DNA from: Comamonas terrigena NBRC 13299
Lineage (GTDB): Bacteria; Pseudomonadota; Gammaproteobacteria; Burkholderiales; Burkholderiaceae_C
Direction: 5' to 3'
DNA: 64,000 nucleotides
Assembly: GCF_006740045.1 (NCBI RefSeq)
Contig: NZ_AP019749.1
Span: forward strand, 2,747,001 to 2,811,000
The position numbers were made by a program, and so were the translations under genes. The notes beneath the pieces were generated by a model that did no database searches, was not told the origin of the DNA, and saw nothing but the letters and a program-made list of their open reading frames with translations. Positions 6,803 to 38,033 of this stretch are shown piece by piece (the first letter of the stretch is position 1; each line of letters starts with the position of its first letter).

Positions 6803-7432
6803 TTACCCCCGTCGTGCCGCGCGCTGTGCCATCAGCTTTTCAGCGCCGGAAAGTTGATTGGTGCGGCCTGCCGACAGCAGGCCCGTGAAATCCGCCTGCC
6901 GCGCAGGAATGCCGGCAGACTGGGCCTGGGGCGGCGCCGGGTTGCTGCCCAGCACCCCGGTTGTCTGCGCCAGCATGGCCAGGTCGTTCGCCGTTCTCAG
7001 GTTCGATGCGGACAGCAAGCCGCTCCCGGCCCCGCTGGCGTAACCAGCCCCCACACCGCCGGCCAGCAGGCCCTGGCCGCCCCCCATGCCGGATGCCGCC
7101 AGCCCCTGGCTGGCCAGCAGACCCTGCCCACCGCCCATGGCGGCCAGGTTGGAAGACCCGGCCCCCGCCATGGACAGCCCCAGGCCGGAACCCGACCCCG
7201 CAGCCGCACCCGATATCGCGCCGCTGACCGTCGTGGTGCCAGCCACCGTCGGCGCTGCCGCGCTGGTGATGGCAGTACTGGCACTGGCCCCCCCCAGGCC
7301 GCCAGCCGCCGCCCCGCCCAAACCACCGGTGACCGCCCCCAGGGTGCCGCCAATGGCCGCGCCCTTCAGCGGGTTGTCCTTGTTCGACAGGGCCCCGGCC
7401 ACCGCCCCGATTGCCATCGGTATCCAGAACAT
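6803..7432 (-). CDS. Glycine/alanine-rich putative ejection protein
   Basis: 209 residues from ATG at 7432 (a GTG one codon upstream is less likely because ATG overlaps the TGA of the preceding gene as ATGA). Residues 1-90 are a long glycine zipper (MAIGAVAGALSNK, AAIGGTLGAVTGGLGGAAAG), typical of membrane-active phage ejection proteins and gp14/gp7-type injection proteins. The C-terminus is polar (LSAGRTNQLSGAEKLMAQRA). No catalytic motif is seen. Confidence 0.5.
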   Translation of the reverse strand: MFWIPMAIGAVAGALSNKDNPLKGAAIGGTLGAVTGGLGGAAAGGLGGASASTAITSAAAPTVAGTTTVSGAISGAAAGSGSGLGLSMAGAGSSNLAAMGGGQGLLASQGLAASGMGGGQGLLAGGVGAGYASGAGSGLLSASNLRTANDLAMLAQTTGVLGSNPAPPQAQSAGIPARQADFTGLLSAGRTNQLSGAEKLMAQRAARRG

Positions 7433-8205
7433 CACTTGCCCCCGCCGCTTTGCTTGGTGGTGGTGCTGCTGCCCGCGGTGCCGCTCATCACCCCCGTCAT
7501 GGCCTGCAGCTTCTTGTAGGGGTCATCCTGCTGCTGCTGCCACTGCTCGTAGTTGAAGTCGGCGTTGTTCTGCGCCTGGTCCTGGTAGGCATTGCCGGCG
7601 TTCAGCATCTGGTTCAGGTCGGTGTAGTCCTGGTTGGCAAAGCCCTGCGCCATGCCTAACGCCGCCAGCTTGTTGGACTGGTTGGTGTTGTAGGCGTTGC
7701 CGTACATCTCGCTCGCCACATTGCCCAGGTTCTGCTGCAGCTGGCTCTGGCTTTGCTGCTGCATCTGCTGCAGGCCCGAATTGCCGAACGACCCCGACCC
7801 CACCATGGCCGACTCCATCTGCGGCTTGGCCGTCAGGTTGTAGCTGTCCACCACGCTTTTTTGCGCATTGGCCACCTGCTGGTCCAGGTACGGGTTGTGC
7901 TGGTCGCCCATCATCTGCTGCAGCCCGGACTGGGCCTGCTTCCACAACTCCGATCCGCCGCCCGCGCGCTCCTGCATGCCCTGCAGCGCCTGCTGCTGGG
8001 TGTCGTTCAACTCGCTGTAGCGCTGGCCGTCATAACCCTGCCAGCCCTTGTTGTAGATGTCCGTGCTCAGCTGCGCCACGTTGGACAGCAGGGGCTTGAT
8101 CTCGTCGGGGTACTGAATGCTGGAGTTCGATGTGCTGCTGCCGCCGCCCCCCTTGGCGGGCCGCAGCCGGCCCTGGGCACGGGCTTTCTCATGAAACGGG
8201 TTCAT
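7432..8205 (-). CDS. Glutamine-rich late virion protein
   Basis: 257 residues. The N-terminus is basic (MNPFHEKARAQGRLRP), followed by a Q/N-rich helical body (LNDTQQQALQGMQERAGGGS, MQQQSQSQLQQNLGNVASEM, YNTNQSNKLAALGMAQGF) with strong coiled-coil character. It overlaps both neighbours by ATGA. Such proteins usually lie between the tail-attachment and ejection genes of short-tailed phages. The exact function is unknown. Confidence 0.5.
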   Translation of the reverse strand: MNPFHEKARAQGRLRPAKGGGGSSTSNSSIQYPDEIKPLLSNVAQLSTDIYNKGWQGYDGQRYSELNDTQQQALQGMQERAGGGSELWKQAQSGLQQMMGDQHNPYLDQQVANAQKSVVDSYNLTAKPQMESAMVGSGSFGNSGLQQMQQQSQSQLQQNLGNVASEMYGNAYNTNQSNKLAALGMAQGFANQDYTDLNQMLNAGNAYQDQAQNNADFNYEQWQQQQDDPYKKLQAMTGVMSGTAGSSTTTKQSGGGK

Positions 8206-16250: not shown

Positions 16251-17554
16251 CACACAATCCCTATGTTGGGCAGTTGAAGGGGCTGCCCCTGCCGGGGCGG
16301 CTCCCACACGCAGCACATCAGCCCGAAGGCGTCCGCACCGTGGCTGGCCCAGTCGTGCGCCGGCCCCAGGCCAATGCCCCGGGCCTCGTCGCGCTTCTCG
16401 TGGTACCAGCCCAGGGCGGCGCGGCCGCCTTCCGTGCTCGTCTCGTTGAACCAGATGCTGGGGAACAGCCGGCGCGCGGCTTCCACCCGCTTCATCGCCG
16501 CCCCCTTGCCCTGGTTGGGCACCACCGTCACCCGGTAGCCCAGCGACTGCAGCGCGCTCTTGGGCGTCACCGCATGCACCGTGTCGGCCTTCTCGCCGTC
16601 GTGCGGCAGCCAGATCTGCAGCCGCTCCGGCGTATAGCCCTGGTCGCGCAGCCACTGCACATGGGCCGCCATGGGCTGGCCCTGGGCCTCGTAGTAGTCC
16701 AGCACCCGCACCTGCATGCCCACAAACTGCACGATCCACATCGCAAAGCTGTCCGCGTTCTGGCCGGTGCCGCCAATGTCCACAAAGGCCCGCAAGGCCA
16801 TCAGCGGGTCCGCCGCCACCACGCCAATGCGCCCCTGGGCCCGGGTATCGGCCAGCTGGCGCGCAAAGTACGCGCCCTCGTTCACCGTCTCGTAGCCGCC
16901 CTCCCAGATATGGTCGTACTTGTCGGGCTGCAGGCGCAGACAGTCCTGGCGCTCCTGCTCCAGCTCGGCCGTGAACCAGGGGTTGTCGCGCCAGTTGGCC
17001 TGCACCACCCGGGCACCGGTGGGCAAGCCTTCGGCGCGCAGCATGCGGTCCACCGGATCCTTGGCAAAGCGCGGGTTCCAGCCAAACCACAGCTGCGACC
17101 CCGCCGCGCGCATCGTCGGCTTCAGCAGGTCCAGGCTGCGCTGGGTCGCCGTCTGCGCCTCTTCCCACCAGGCACGCTTGAAGCCCTCCAGCGATTTCAC
17201 GCTGTCGGCCGTGTAGTCGTTCATGCCTTTGAAGATGACCAGGCCATCCCCCGGCGTAGTGATCACATCCTTGTAGACCCGAAACCCATCCGCCTGGCCC
17301 AGCCCCAGCGCGGACAGCTTGGACTCCAGCAAAGCCTTGCTCGACTGGCTCAGGTCCTTCTGCACCTCGCGGATACACACCGCACGCAGGCCCTCGCCGC
17401 CCATGGCGCCGGGCTCGTACAGGCAGTCCTCCAGCAGCATCTCGGCAAAGAAATGGCTCTTGCCAGACCCCCGCCCCCCATGCGCGCCCTTGTAGCGCGC
17501 AGGCTCCAGCAGCGGCGCAAACACGCGCGCCGTCTTCAGATTCAGCGTTCTCAT
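16250..17554 (-). CDS. Terminase large subunit
   Basis: 434 residues. Walker A GGRGSGKS at 26-33, Walker B-like WWEEAQ near 130, and the RNase H-like nuclease acidic residues in AFVDIGGTGQNADSF (about 255), LPHDGEKAD (about 310) and HDWASHGADAF near the end. This is the PBSX/Terminase_3 type of packaging motor: ATPase translocates DNA into the procapsid and the nuclease cuts the concatemer. It overlaps the small subunit stop (ATGA) and the portal start (TGATG). Confidence 0.92.
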   Translation of the reverse strand: MRTLNLKTARVFAPLLEPARYKGAHGGRGSGKSHFFAEMLLEDCLYEPGAMGGEGLRAVCIREVQKDLSQSSKALLESKLSALGLGQADGFRVYKDVITTPGDGLVIFKGMNDYTADSVKSLEGFKRAWWEEAQTATQRSLDLLKPTMRAAGSQLWFGWNPRFAKDPVDRMLRAEGLPTGARVVQANWRDNPWFTAELEQERQDCLRLQPDKYDHIWEGGYETVNEGAYFARQLADTRAQGRIGVVAADPLMALRAFVDIGGTGQNADSFAMWIVQFVGMQVRVLDYYEAQGQPMAAHVQWLRDQGYTPERLQIWLPHDGEKADTVHAVTPKSALQSLGYRVTVVPNQGKGAAMKRVEAARRLFPSIWFNETSTEGGRAALGWYHEKRDEARGIGLGPAHDWASHGADAFGLMCCVWEPPRQGQPLQLPNIGIV

Positions 17555-18177
17555 GCCTGGGGATCGATGATGGTGCGCGTCACATGCGCCACCGTTTCAA
17601 TGGGGCCGCCGCCAGGGGCAGACAGGCCCAGCTTGTCGTTCAGCATGCCCAGGTGGCGCATCGCCAGCTGCAGCGTGGCCACCTTGTCGAACACCCGGGT
17701 CTTGATGGTGTAGCCCGCCACCTGCTTGCGCCGCGGCGCACCGCCGTGGGCGGCAGAGCCTGCTGCAGAGACAGTTGCAGAGGCGGCTGCAGAGGCCGAC
17801 GGCTCGTGCAGTGCATCCTCCCCGCCACCGCGCTCCAGCTCTTCCTTCACCTCAATGCTGGCCAGCGCTGCCGCCGTGTCGGCATCCAGCTCGCAGGGGT
17901 CCTTCATGCTCCCGTCCGCGCGGTACAGCCTGCGGATGTCAAAGAAGGCAATCCGCGCCAGCTCCTGCAGCACCCTGTCCTGGGTGATCTCGGTGCGTAC
18001 CGCCCGCGCCTGCTGCGCGGCCTGGACGGCCCGCGCCACCCCGCCCTGCTTCAAAAGCCGCGCCCCCTGGGACGCGGCGGTCTTGGCGCTGTAGCCGGTC
18101 CTGATCGCGGCCTGAGTCGCGTTCAGGTCAATCAGGTACTCGGCCACAAAGCGCTCCTGCTTTGGGGTCAGTTCCAT
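17551..18177 (-). CDS. Terminase small subunit
   Basis: 208 residues from ATG at 18177. LTPKQERFVAEYLIDLNATQ and AAIRTGYSAKTAASQGARLL form the DNA-binding helix-turn-helix of the Terminase_2 family (about residues 3-50), followed by helices (AVQAAQQARAVRTEITQDRV) that build the ring. Residues 130-155 are an alanine/serine linker. Recognises the packaging site and hands DNA to the large subunit. The start follows a terminator hairpin by 15 bases. First gene of the late operon. Confidence 0.88.
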   Translation of the reverse strand: MELTPKQERFVAEYLIDLNATQAAIRTGYSAKTAASQGARLLKQGGVARAVQAAQQARAVRTEITQDRVLQELARIAFFDIRRLYRADGSMKDPCELDADTAAALASIEVKEELERGGGEDALHEPSASAAASATVSAAGSAAHGGAPRRKQVAGYTIKTRVFDKVATLQLAMRHLGMLNDKLGLSAPGGGPIETVAHVTRTIIDPQA

Positions 18178-18191
18178 GTGTTTTTTCCAAT

Positions 18192-18214
18192 AAAAAAGCC
18201 ACCCGAAGGTGGCT
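18192..18214 (-). terminator. Hairpin terminator just before the small terminase gene
   Basis: On the minus strand AGCCACC-TTCG-GGTGGCT is followed by six U, 15 bases upstream of the terminase start. Placed here it could be the target of the putative Q antiterminator, blocking late transcription until antitermination; that is inference. Confidence 0.75.
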
Positions 18215-18518
18215 GTGGTGGTGGGGTGGCAGCGCCCATGGGCGCTGTCGTCTGTGAACGTGCGCGATAAGCAACGTAGGGACACAATCTCAAAAATCGG
18301 CACGCCAAAGCTGTCATTCGGAGTGGGCAATTTAACCGCTATCCTCCTTTGCAGCATTTAGAACCTAGATTTTGATAGCCACAGAAAACATTGCATTAAG
18401 AAATTTGATGAATAAATATCTGTAGTCACACAGCAAGCAGAACTACACCGAACCCAGAGTTTCTCAGCTATTTGCTGATTTAACGATTCCCATTAAGAGA
18501 AAGCATGAGTTATTACTG
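18215..18518. promoter_or_regulatory. Control region between late operon and HEPN gene, with an 18-bp palindrome
   Basis: A perfect palindrome CAGCGCCCATGGGCGCTG lies at 18230-18247, possibly an operator or packaging-site element. From about 18340 the sequence becomes AT-rich, marking the start of the foreign-looking cargo. No promoter stood out clearly, and no gene is seen. Confidence 0.45.
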
Positions 18519-19082
18519 ATGACTAAGGCGCAAAAAATCGCTAGCACCTTGATAGAAGAAGGAAACAAGGCTAGAGCACATTTTCAGGTATGGTGGGCAC
18601 TTCGAAATAAGTCCTTACCAAAATACTACGAAACCATGAATGATTCTAGTTATGTCGATTTCTTCCACGTATCAAATTCTGGCCACTACACGCTTTTCTT
18701 ACTTTCTCTAGCAAAAATTTTTGATCGTGACAGTCGTGTGGCCGGTATTCAGAAATTTAAACAGGCGCTCTGCACAGAAGGTATGAACGAACTGGCCGAA
18801 AGCCTTTCGCAGGCTCTCGCACCATACCAGGATACAGTTGAAAATGTAATGAGAATCCGAAATAAATCTGTTGCGCATAATGAACACAGTATCACACGCG
18901 AAGACGTTTACAGACTAAATGGCGTTACACCCAACGAACTCCAAATGTTGATCGACGCAGCCTGTCAAGCGATTAACGAAACTAGCAGAGAACTGGGCAT
19001 CAACAACCTTATATTCGACGGAAACAGAGCAGAAAAAGCGACTTTCAATATGCTAAAAGCTTTATCAAAAGGACGGAAATAA
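18519..19082 (+). CDS. HEPN-domain protein, AbiU2-like
   Basis: 187 residues, AT-rich compared with its surroundings. The N-terminal helices (LIEEGNKARAHFQVWWALRN) and HYTLFLLSLAKIFDRDSR are followed by the HEPN signature RNKSVAH (Arg, five residues, His at about 112-118), the catalytic motif of HEPN ribonucleases. The overall layout is that of AbiU2-type abortive-infection proteins, so it may be a phage-carried defence or toxin component; that is inference. No clear ribosome binding site precedes ATG 18519. A second HEPN-like gene follows after 54 bases in the same direction. Confidence 0.6.
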   Translation: MTKAQKIASTLIEEGNKARAHFQVWWALRNKSLPKYYETMNDSSYVDFFHVSNSGHYTLFLLSLAKIFDRDSRVAGIQKFKQALCTEGMNELAESLSQALAPYQDTVENVMRIRNKSVAHNEHSITREDVYRLNGVTPNELQMLIDAACQAINETSRELGINNLIFDGNRAEKATFNMLKALSKGRK

Positions 19083-19136
19083 ATTAATCGAACTCAGACT
19101 TCAATCCCCACAAACATCAACTTCTACAGTCTTTCC

Positions 19137-19753
19137 ATGGAATCAAAAGAATCAGCCATTTGGCCTCCATTTGAGGCGTTTTATATCCAAAGCATGCTAT
19201 TCAACAGCGTTTCAGCGACTCAATCAATAGCTCGCCTAGAAAATATATTCAGCACGCTGCCAATACAGGTAACACAGGAAGATATTACGAAACTTCCTGT
19301 TAAGTCGGTGCTAAACGAACTACAAAACATTGTGCTTCAAAGCGCTTCACTGTCACGATATTTTTGGCCTATCCGTAAGGGACACGAGGCACGTGGCAAG
19401 CGCCTTAGAGATTCATTCTCAATGACAGAGCCAGCCCACTGTTCAACAGGGATCTTCGTAATGCTTTAGAACATTTCGATGAGAGACTGGATAAATATTT
19501 ATCTGGTGGAGTCGTTGGCTACGTCCGCCCTGAATTCGTCGGCACTAAGCCAGAAATTGATGGAATTCCTGGGCATTTCTTCCGAGCCTATTTTTTGGAT
19601 ACCGGAGAATTTCGTTTGTTAGATGAAGAATTCAATATTAAGCCTCTTGCTGATGAACTCTTATTTGTTCATCGCCACCTGTCCATTCTTGATAAAAACG
19701 GAGGTATGTTGCGAGATGCAGTCCGTCATATTGAAGAATTTGGAGATAATTGA
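19137..19753 (+). pseudogene. Second HEPN-like gene, broken by a one-base deletion
   Basis: The frame from ATG 19137 runs through helices (FEAFYIQSMLFNSVSATQSI, LNELQNIVLQSASLSRYFWP) and RGKRLRDSFS, then reads nonsense to a stop at 19469. From 19424 another frame continues without a stop for 109 residues to TGA 19753, beginning DRASPLFNRDLRNALEHFDE and ending DAVRHIEEFGDN. Adding one A near 19421-19422 would join them into about 205 residues with the motif RNALEH (Arg-x4-His), a HEPN signature, in a family of uncharacterised proteins. The gene is AT-rich and follows the AbiU2-like gene. Either a true mutation or a sequencing error. Confidence 0.65.
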
Positions 19754-19990
19754 TTGCGTATCATGCAATATCTCAACCGAACAAAAATTCTCTTCTCTGA
19801 TATTAACTTCTAGCCGCTAGTATCCAGCGATCGAGGATTACGCATAACCACAGCGATTACGTCACATCCGTTGAGCACCAACCCGCGACACGTCCTACTA
19901 CGCCCAATCAGCTCCCAGCACGCATGCCCCGTCACCCAACCACCTGCTTCTCCACCACCCGCCGCCCTTCCCAGCACGCGAAAGCCACCC

Positions 19991-20383
19991 ATGCGCATCG
20001 GTGAACTCGCAGCCCTGACAGGCTGTACCCCCAAGGCGCTGCGGCTGTACGAAGCGCACGGCCTGCTCGGCACCGTGGCGCGCCAAGGCAGCTACCGCCA
20101 CTACGGCCCGGAAGATGTCCAGCGCGTGCAGTGGATACGCCAGGCCTTGGCGCTGGGTTTCCGCCTGGCCGCGCTGCAACCGCTGCGCACCATGGACACC
20201 CCGGCCGGCGCCGCCGCCGTCCTGGCCTTGCTGCAAACCCGGCGGCGCGCCATCGCGGATGAGCTGCAGCGTCTGCAAGCCGCCGACACCGCGCTGGCCG
20301 CTTTGGCGCTGGAACTAAGCACTTGCGAGACAGCCACCGAGTGTCCTGCGCCAGATCAACTCGGCATCCGACGCAGCGCTTGA
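19991..20383 (+). CDS. MerR-family transcriptional regulator
   Basis: 130 residues from ATG 19991, chosen because MRIGELAALTGCTPKALRLY is the exact start of the MerR winged helix (residues 1-70, with YEAHGLL and YRHYGPEDVQRVQWIRQALA). The C-terminal dimerisation helix spans about 75-115. No conserved metal-binding cysteine set is visible, so the effector is probably an organic compound or redox signal. The quinone reductase gene starts about 60 bases downstream, and MerR regulators commonly control such neighbours. Confidence 0.85.
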   Translation: MRIGELAALTGCTPKALRLYEAHGLLGTVARQGSYRHYGPEDVQRVQWIRQALALGFRLAALQPLRTMDTPAGAAAVLALLQTRRRAIADELQRLQAADTALAALALELSTCETATECPAPDQLGIRRSA

Positions 20384-20444
20384 CTCTGCCCCACGGGACA
20401 AGGTGATGCTGGCGGCTTGTCTACTCAGCCAGCTTCCACCCTCC

Positions 20445-21032
20445 ATGTCCCGCCGCATCCTCATCATCCTCGGACAACCCTCTTCCAGCAGCCTGTGTGC
20501 GGCCTTGGCCCACGCCTATGCCGATGCGGCACGCCAATCGGGCGCCGAAGTGCGCCTGCTGCAACTGGGTGACATGGCTTTCGATCCCATCCTGCACCAC
20601 GGTTACCAGCGCGTCCAGCCGCTGGAGCCCGACCTGCAGGCCGCACAGGCCGACATCACCTGGGCACAGCACCTGGTGTGGGTCTACCCCATCTGGTGGG
20701 GAGGCCTGCCTGCCCTGCTCAAGGGATTTCTGGACCGCACCTTCCTGCCCGGCTTCGCCTTCAAATACCGCCCCAACTCTGCGCTGTGGGACCGCCTGCT
20801 GGCGGGCCGCAGTGCAGAGCTGCTGGTGACCATGGACTCCCCGCCCTGGTACTACCGCTGGGTGCAGCGCCAACCGGGCCACCGGCAAATGAAGCAGACC
20901 ATTCTGGAATTCAGCGGTATCAAGCCCGTGCGCGTGCACAGCTTTGGCCCGGTGATCCGTTCCAGCGACGCCACGCGTGCCCGCTGGATCCAGCGGGCCC
21001 ACACCCTGGGTGCCCGTGCCGGCGCACGCTGA
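20445..21032 (+). CDS. NAD(P)H quinone reductase (flavodoxin-like)
   Basis: 195 residues from ATG 20445; upstream GTG and ATG at 20403/20406 would add 13 or 14 residues not expected in the family. Motifs are typical of the NQO1/MdaB/KefF-type flavodoxin fold: GQPSSSSLCAAL (FMN/FAD phosphate loop), HLVWVYPIWWGGLPALLKGF, DRTFLPGFAFKY and the nucleotide-binding MDSPPWYYRW. It reduces quinones by two electrons and protects against redox stress. Paired with the MerR gene; together they look like cargo inside the prophage. A strong terminator follows. Confidence 0.85.
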   Translation: MSRRILIILGQPSSSSLCAALAHAYADAARQSGAEVRLLQLGDMAFDPILHHGYQRVQPLEPDLQAAQADITWAQHLVWVYPIWWGGLPALLKGFLDRTFLPGFAFKYRPNSALWDRLLAGRSAELLVTMDSPPWYYRWVQRQPGHRQMKQTILEFSGIKPVRVHSFGPVIRSSDATRARWIQRAHTLGARAGAR

Positions 21033-21347: not shown

Positions 21348-21390
21348 ATGCCGTGATTCTATCATTTGAATAGCACCACATCCGTAAACA

Positions 21391-21503
21391 ACAAAGCCCG
21401 CAGGCGAACCTTGCGGGCTTGGTGGCATCAGCGAATCCGGTCGCAGCCAACCCGGCGCAAACCGGGTTCGTTCTGCGCTGTTGCTAACGATGGACGTACG
21501 TTA
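21391..21503. repeat. Duplicated structured element, copy 1
   Basis: Shares with copy 2 (22155-22270) a hairpin AAGCCCGCA...TTGCGGGCTT, a perfectly identical 35-base block at 21439-21473 that itself folds (AACCCGG-CGCAAA-CCGGGTT), and a common end TGCTAACGATG..CGTACGTTA. Spacing is nearly equal in both copies. It has no convincing gene on either strand and lies upstream of tRNA-Tyr on the minus strand. Probably an RNA or control element; see findings. Confidence 0.75.
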
Positions 21504-21962: not shown

Positions 21963-22154
21963 GGTGACCCCTCTTGCAGCGGGCACCCCGGTCCAGAGGT
22001 GCAAGGCCGCCGCGCCCATTGATTTCTGGGGCAAGCTTCACACACCGTCTCCGACAGCGTCATCAGCGCATTGCCCGTGGGGGACAAGCGGTCGGCAACA
22101 CCCACCTCAACAGCTTCACCACGGCACCAGAGCCACTGGACCACACCCCAAAAC

Positions 22155-22270
22155 ACAAAAGCCCGCAGGCACACCTGGCGGGCTTTTTGTTTGGTTGGAA
22201 CCGGGGGTCGCAGCCAACCCGGCGCAAACCGGGTTCGTTCCGTGCTGGTGCTAACGATGCGCGTACGTTA
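22155..22270. repeat. Duplicated structured element, copy 2
   Basis: Contains the hairpin AAAAGCCCGCAGG...CTGGCGGGCTTTTT (a good bidirectional terminator at 22157-22188), the 35-base block identical to copy 1 at 22206-22240, and the shared CGTACGTTA end. It begins at the stop codon of the Q-like gene, whose transcript would enter it directly. An overlapping open frame (22293-22063, minus) encodes NEPGLRRVGC, also read from copy 1; I think this reflects the repeat rather than a protein. Confidence 0.75.
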
Positions 22271-37957: not shown

Positions 37958-38033
37958 TGGTGGGTCCTGCGAGATTCGAACTCGCGACCAACGGATTAAA
38001 AGTCCGCTGCTCTACCGACTGAGCTAAAGACCC
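37958..38033 (-). tRNA. tRNA-Lys (anticodon TTT)
   Basis: 76 bases with all arms: acceptor GGGTCTT/AGGACCC, anticodon loop CTTTTAA (anticodon TTT), T loop TTCGAAT, discriminator A and encoded CCA. It lies next to the Tol-Pal genes, an arrangement found in many proteobacteria including E. coli, so it is a chromosomal landmark. Confidence 0.97.

Follow-up and report, generated by a model that had tools for sequence, protein, structure and literature searches.

Variable cargo slot of a Comamonas terrigena prophage carrying an AbiU2-family gene and a frame-broken neighbor with an HEPN-type motif

The region described here lies in a lambda-like prophage of Comamonas terrigena NBRC 13299 and was analyzed within a stretch of 64,000 nucleotides (contig NZ_AP019749.1, positions 2,747,001 to 2,811,000), which is called the window throughout. 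Between the small terminase gene terS and the gene of a MerR-family regulator, the prophage carries a cassette of low guanine-plus-cytosine (GC) content that holds two adjacent plus-strand genes, gene 1 and gene 2 (Table 1). An earlier sequence-only reading had singled these genes out for their low GC content and for an Arg-x(4-5)-His signature in each of them—RNKSVAH in gene 1 and RNALEH in gene 2. Both observations hold: the GC content is 42% in the two genes versus 67% in the adjoining prophage DNA, and the arginine and the histidine are conserved in both protein families.

The place of the cassette beside the small terminase gene is a variable cargo site. Fifty-one loci encoding a small terminase relative were examined, and four sister contigs among them (L143, L145, L146, and L147; fetched loci are cited by such numbers) share both flanks with the window at 91 to 98% identity. 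Their flank matches stop at window positions 18258–18270 and 19876–19905, and the cargo between these breakpoints differs from that of the window in all four, the slot measuring approximately 1.5 to 4.5 kb in the sisters and 1.6 kb in the window. A fifth sister, IMGVR_UViG_3300010965_000480 (L086, L109, and L144), holds the window's own cassette, with four mismatches and one gap column in approximately 1,720 bases (18181–19900; 99.8% identity) and an identity of 99.5 to 100% by segment. The border genes of this contig are 96.4% (terS), 92.4% (MerR), and 96.8% (flavodoxin gene) identical, and the 82 bases just past the cassette 83%. Because the cassette is more similar between these two phages than the genes on either side of it, it has been exchanged, and moves, as a block. 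IMG/VR holds no further cassette copy beyond the one sister contig, and DNA matches in phage records (19 records) are all confined to the small terminase stretch. Predicted promoters and terminators in the cassette region were no more numerous than in shuffled sequences, and no structured RNA was found in the cassette at Rfam gathering scores, the sole Rfam match in the window being a tRNA at 37961–38033.

The four alternative cargos are themselves diverse. The slot of L143 encodes an IrrE/HTH protein that matches PD-Lambda-2_B of PADLOC, together with a thymidylate synthase and an aGPT-Pplase3/ADDT protein; this is the one PADLOC match among the four cargos and concerns a single gene of its system, the remainder of which was not recognized in the slot. 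The thymidylate synthase and aGPT-Pplase3/ADDT genes of this slot (L143 5869–9207) suggest thymine hypermodification. L145 carries a cytidine-deaminase protein with an additional C-terminal part (7258–8094). The open reading frames (ORFs) in the slots of L146 and L147 lack any family match, and one of those in L147 (7305–9119) encodes a 604-residue protein without family assignment. A swap slot with differing cargo among sister phages offers a ready set of candidate defense systems.

Gene 1 is, by its sequence, a predicted HEPN ribonuclease (RNase) of the AbiU2 family, the resemblance that the sequence-only reading had pointed out. It scores 55.9 bits against the Pfam profile PF18734, for which the curated cut-off is 26.8. 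Within its motif, R114-N-K-S-V-A-H120, the arginine and the histidine are invariant across 67 aligned sequences, and the pattern R[NDH]x4H is present in 104 of the 120 proteins among the matches listed. The predicted structure is helical, with a predicted local distance difference test score (pLDDT) of 91. Assignments to Csm6 or JetB were rejected, their matches being weak and under the cut-off wherever a cut-off exists, and plasmids gave no match to gene 1 at E 1e-5. A gene 1 homolog with 65% identity is located at the end of another contig, IMGVR_UViG_2523533611_000003 (L110), where an ORF of 2746 residues precedes it by approximately 1.3 kb; gene 1 relatives therefore also occur on viral contigs of a different kind.

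Gene 2 belongs to a large family, with at least 1309 matches. It had been called uncharacterized, and so it remains: its two pieces have no match above chance in Pfam, NCBIfam, PADLOC, or PHROGs, and neither have 99 of its relatives in Pfam, where the best matches, Pik1 and PI_PP_C, reach E 0.0026 or worse and were judged to be chance. In an alignment of 99 rows, R108, E112, and H113 are invariant, and N109 is kept in at least 90%. The motif R[ND]xxEH is present in 75 of 77 genome loci (the others being L023, in which the arginine is replaced by histidine, and the broken copy of L045) and in all 22 viral loci; a slightly wider pattern occurs in 172 of the 177 relatives among the matches listed, the other five being short (102–141 residues). 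The expectation that both proteins are all-helical is met by gene 1 and fails for gene 2: the predicted structure of its relative P0122 (mean pLDDT 89.7) has four strands ahead of the last helix. Judged by the order of elements and not by superposition, this model runs through a helix (residues 84–94), a short helix (105–110), and a loop at the motif (111–113), and the strands start 16 residues past the motif histidine, after a further short helix. The gene 2 family is most likely one of putative HEPN-type, metal-independent RNases with a β-insert shortly after R[ND]xxEH. A Foldseek comparison with viral models gave one clear match, an uncharacterized protein of Gordonia phage Madeline (E 2.4e-5), and a PDB sequence search with the profiles of both genes returned nothing meaningful. 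Gene 2 relatives occur in nine plasmid records, and one distant relative occurs in phage records. With this family, more than 1000 unnamed proteins, in which an RNase-type motif is nearly invariant, escape the defense and domain libraries used here.

In the window, gene 2 (19137–19753) is a single gene interrupted by a one-base frameshift. The upstream piece aligns with the N-terminal half, and the downstream piece with the C-terminal half, of a single family of approximately 200-residue proteins, and in IMGVR_UViG_3300010965_000480 the gene is open in a single frame, differing from the window by one mismatch and one gap column (99.8% identity). The sequence-only reading had joined the two frames by a one-base change and had taken the 109 open codons of the downstream half as a sign of recent decay or sequencing error; the near-identical intact sister copy bears this out, and at local composition such an open stretch has a probability of approximately 0.0013. 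Programmed frameshifting, as opposed to decay, is ruled out by the single-frame sister copy and, on inspection, by the lack of a slippery run at the break. That the break is an error of sequencing or assembly and that gene 2 works in this genome is considered unlikely. The open sister copy with its one substitution and the preserved motif region would fit such an error. Against it, the 50-base stretch spanning the break contains no homopolymer longer than three bases, and a misread homopolymer is therefore not an obvious cause. In addition, the protein database lists an identical 110-residue product (P0121) on two contigs, the longest of 1548 bases and their origin not stated there, an indication that other assemblies share this break. 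For these two reasons, a real mutation is favored. Broken gene 2 copies are not rare, since 4 of 77 other genome loci (L016, L020, L045, and L057) also read in two frames.

The two genes had been regarded as a cargo unit for anti-phage defense, for which an intact two-gene unit was looked for elsewhere. A total of 103 gene 2 loci were fetched (80 genome and 23 viral loci, some on contigs that end near gene 2), and with a profile of close gene 1 relatives, the tandem pair was detected in the window and in one of these, the sister phage L109. The cargo part of the claim thus stands, as the four sister slots hold other cargo, and the fixed two-gene unit does not. With the broader Pfam profile, AbiU2 was found in 3 of 79 other genomes holding gene 2: all three come from a first set of 50 genomes, in which the control genomes gave no match, and none from 29 further genomes, where the control likewise gave no match, so that absence is unproven. 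In Halomonas ventosae (L014), AbiU2 follows gene 2 at a distance of 1.3 kb and shares its strand; in Pandoraea communis (L022), the two genes lie 0.4 kb apart on opposite strands; and in Methylophilus rhizosphaerae, approximately 23 kb separate them, the contigs of both being of equal length. The two closer cases thus fall within 1.4 kb but are not tandem pairs. Of 369 genomes of the class, 9 contain AbiU2 and 2 contain gene 2, and the window's own genome is the only one with both. A scan of gene 2 surroundings for HEPN-like motifs gave 6 of 147 near ORFs versus 1 of 186 distal ORFs with a tight pattern—L022 alone being a Pfam HEPN protein, and L026 and L037 appearing plausible by eye without a Pfam match—and no clear excess with a loose pattern (36 of 147 versus 39 of 186).

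Taken together, the cassette is read, with a probability of about 0.62, as exchangeable anti-phage cargo: a predicted abortive-infection module of two HEPN-type RNases. Superinfection would trigger the gene 1 product, the gene 2 product, or both, possibly cooperating or in a complex; the triggered proteins would cut RNA, either cellular or of the phage, and the infected cell would stop growing before the invader matures. The break in gene 2 probably leaves this genome with a dead module or with one that depends solely on gene 1. Several points weigh against this picture. Membership of gene 2 in the HEPN superfamily is likely and rests on the nearly invariant motif together with a structural similarity to known HEPN domains that is faint; profile comparison does not link gene 2 to AbiU2, and homology between the two genes is accordingly not supported, so that the HEPN claim of the sequence-only reading keeps its motif and loses a profile link. 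Furthermore, AbiU2 and gene 2 at times share islands but do not form a fixed pair.

A comparatively improbable alternative is that the slot is a general cargo site and the cassette not defensive, its two genes being unrelated, solitary HEPN-like passengers—for instance, of host stress or RNA turnover—that lie together by chance. Such an account would explain why no tandem pair was seen outside the window and one sister phage, why the neighbors of gene 2 are mostly mixed and nonrecurrent, why three of the four alternative slots lack a PADLOC match, and why a MerR/flavodoxin pair with chromosomal relatives adjoins the cassette. It fits less well with the two further genomes in which AbiU2 is located near gene 2, the chance of at least two of four AbiU2 genes falling within 1.4 kb being approximately 2e-6 for a distance picked after seeing the data, and with four Flavobacterium loci in which HEPN_AbiV directly precedes gene 2. 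A toxin–antitoxin pair, in which one product restrains the other RNase and the broken gene 2 is a toxin lost through its cost, is distinctly unlikely: two small neighboring genes on the same strand and the four broken copies elsewhere would suit it, but both proteins carry an RNase-type motif, gene 2 has no fixed partner, and no antitoxin-like partner was found, as neither gene matches a family of the MNT nucleotidyltransferase—the known HEPN antitoxin partner described in PMC3710099—and no other cassette ORF resembles one on inspection. The toxin pair of the sequence-only reading is thus not favored.

With a simple ORF caller, 146 ORFs adjoining gene 2 were predicted in 77 loci. The commonest neighbor families are RtcB (six), HEPN_AbiV (five, four of them traced to loci), and NAD synthase (three); SMODS, HerA, phage integrase, and transposase are among the families with two members, as are housekeeping ones (25 of 116 families listed). 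RtcB, AbiV, SMODS, HerA, integrase, and transposase are absent among the families listed (25 of 181) for 134 ORFs at distal positions in these loci. All RtcB cases, and the four AbiV cases that were traced, come from Flavobacterium, whose loci represent related genomes and not independent events. Herein, gene 2 is located near RtcB or a T4-type RNA ligase in 9 of 12 loci (L049, L050, L052, L056, L058, L062, L063, L068, and L070), and AbiV lies directly upstream of gene 2 in L052, L056, L063, and L070; the RNA-repair cluster was not seen in the other three (L051, L053, and L054). Several clusters add genes for polynucleotide kinase, PNKP ligase, RlaP, TROVE, and WYL proteins, family names having been checked on representatives. 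A conserved protein of 746 residues without convincing family was also observed in five of the nine clusters.

HEPN RNases cut without metal and leave 2′,3′-cyclic phosphate ends (PMC3710099), on which RtcB acts according to titles cited within PMC4012209; gene 2 is therefore taken as a putative RNase whose cuts may be mendable in some hosts. A farther-reaching proposal, rather unlikely as a whole, would make gene 2 the founder of a large, as yet unnamed family of HEPN-type RNases forming the second half of two-HEPN modules, with AbiU2 first in phages and Proteobacteria and AbiV first in Flavobacterium. The Flavobacterium cuts would then be reversible by the adjoining RtcB, T4-type RNA ligase, and polynucleotide kinase, leading to arrest with recovery as opposed to suicide. 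In Flavobacterium, the proximity of an RNase-like gene to RtcB or to a kinase/ligase set offers a testable link from RNA-cutting defense to RNA repair.

Compared with known systems, gene 1 shares with HEPN_AbiU2 (PF18734, named after Lactococcus AbiU2) the profile, the R-x5-H motif with asparagine after the arginine, and the all-helical model; it differs in its setting, a slot of a lambda-like prophage in a GC-rich host, and in having a neighbor from another family. An HEPN gene second to AbiU2 is already on record: Table 1 of Anantharaman et al. 2013 (PMC3710099) lists the Bxe_C0808 HEPN family with a conserved motif and the entry "In operon with AbiU2", resembling the second HEPN gene that adjoins AbiU2 in the window and in L109. 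Gene 2 may belong to this family, the likeness being drawn from the table description and not from sequence; a literature search found Bxe_C0808 named in no paper besides PMC3710099. Gene 1 is thus of the known AbiU2 kind, and the novelty lies in the partner family, which is unnamed, together with its neighbors of HEPN and RNA-repair type and the slot of the sister phages. HEPN_AbiV (PF18728), found before gene 2 relatives in Flavobacterium and not in the window, is described in PMC3710099 as being without the canonical HEPN motif. The Csx1-type HEPN proteins of CRISPR systems have a β-insert after the motif (PMC3710099), as does the gene 2 model; however, gene 2, at approximately 200 residues, lacks a CARF-like domain and a CRISPR context. 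As for the slot, the anti-phage hotspots of P2 and P4 are small, high-turnover loci between two conserved phage genes (PMC9122126), and the slot of the window is likewise small (about 1–5 kb) and variable, with swapped cargo between conserved phage genes. It belongs to another phage type and host, and its defense function is predicted. The hotspots adjoin cos; the slot lies next to the small terminase gene.

Table 1. Features of the cassette and its borders (positions in the window)
Feature	Position	Strand	Basis or remark
Small terminase subunit (terS), left border gene	17551..18180	-	Pfam PF03592, E 3.9e-35
Low-GC cargo cassette (42% GC)	18266..19900	.	Ends of flank matches, GC, sister identity
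Gene 1, 187 residues, predicted HEPN_AbiU2 protein, motif R114-x5-H120	18519..19082	+	Pfam PF18734, E 4.9e-15
Gene 1 motif RNKSVAH, residues 114–120	18858..18878	+	Translation, alignment
Gene 2 upstream piece, 110 residues from ATG	19137..19469	+	Family frame to approximately residue 98, off frame after
Gene 2 downstream piece, 114 residues stop to stop, other frame, carries RNALEH	19409..19753	+	Intact copy in L109/L086
MerR-family regulator, right border gene	19991..20383	+	Pfam PF13411, E 8.2e-16
Flavodoxin-fold/FMN reductase-like protein, partner of MerR gene	20403..21032	+	Pfam PF02525, E 3.4e-36

Some further features of the prophage were observed near the slot. The pair of MerR and flavodoxin/FMN-reductase genes (19991–21032) recurs with 78 to 80% DNA identity in six genomes of the same genus (L132–L136 and L142). 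These loci lack other matching prophage DNA, save for one 90-base match in L142, and the phage therefore seems to have picked the pair up. Farther to the right, a direct repeat of approximately 130 bases (21375–21503 and 22140–22270) is 79% alike between its copies, and in the sister contig L109 no aligning sequence was seen for the stretch from about 21988 to 22147. Ahead of terS, a short terminator-like stretch (18187–18228) recurs as matches of 24 to 37 bases in many genomes of the genus.
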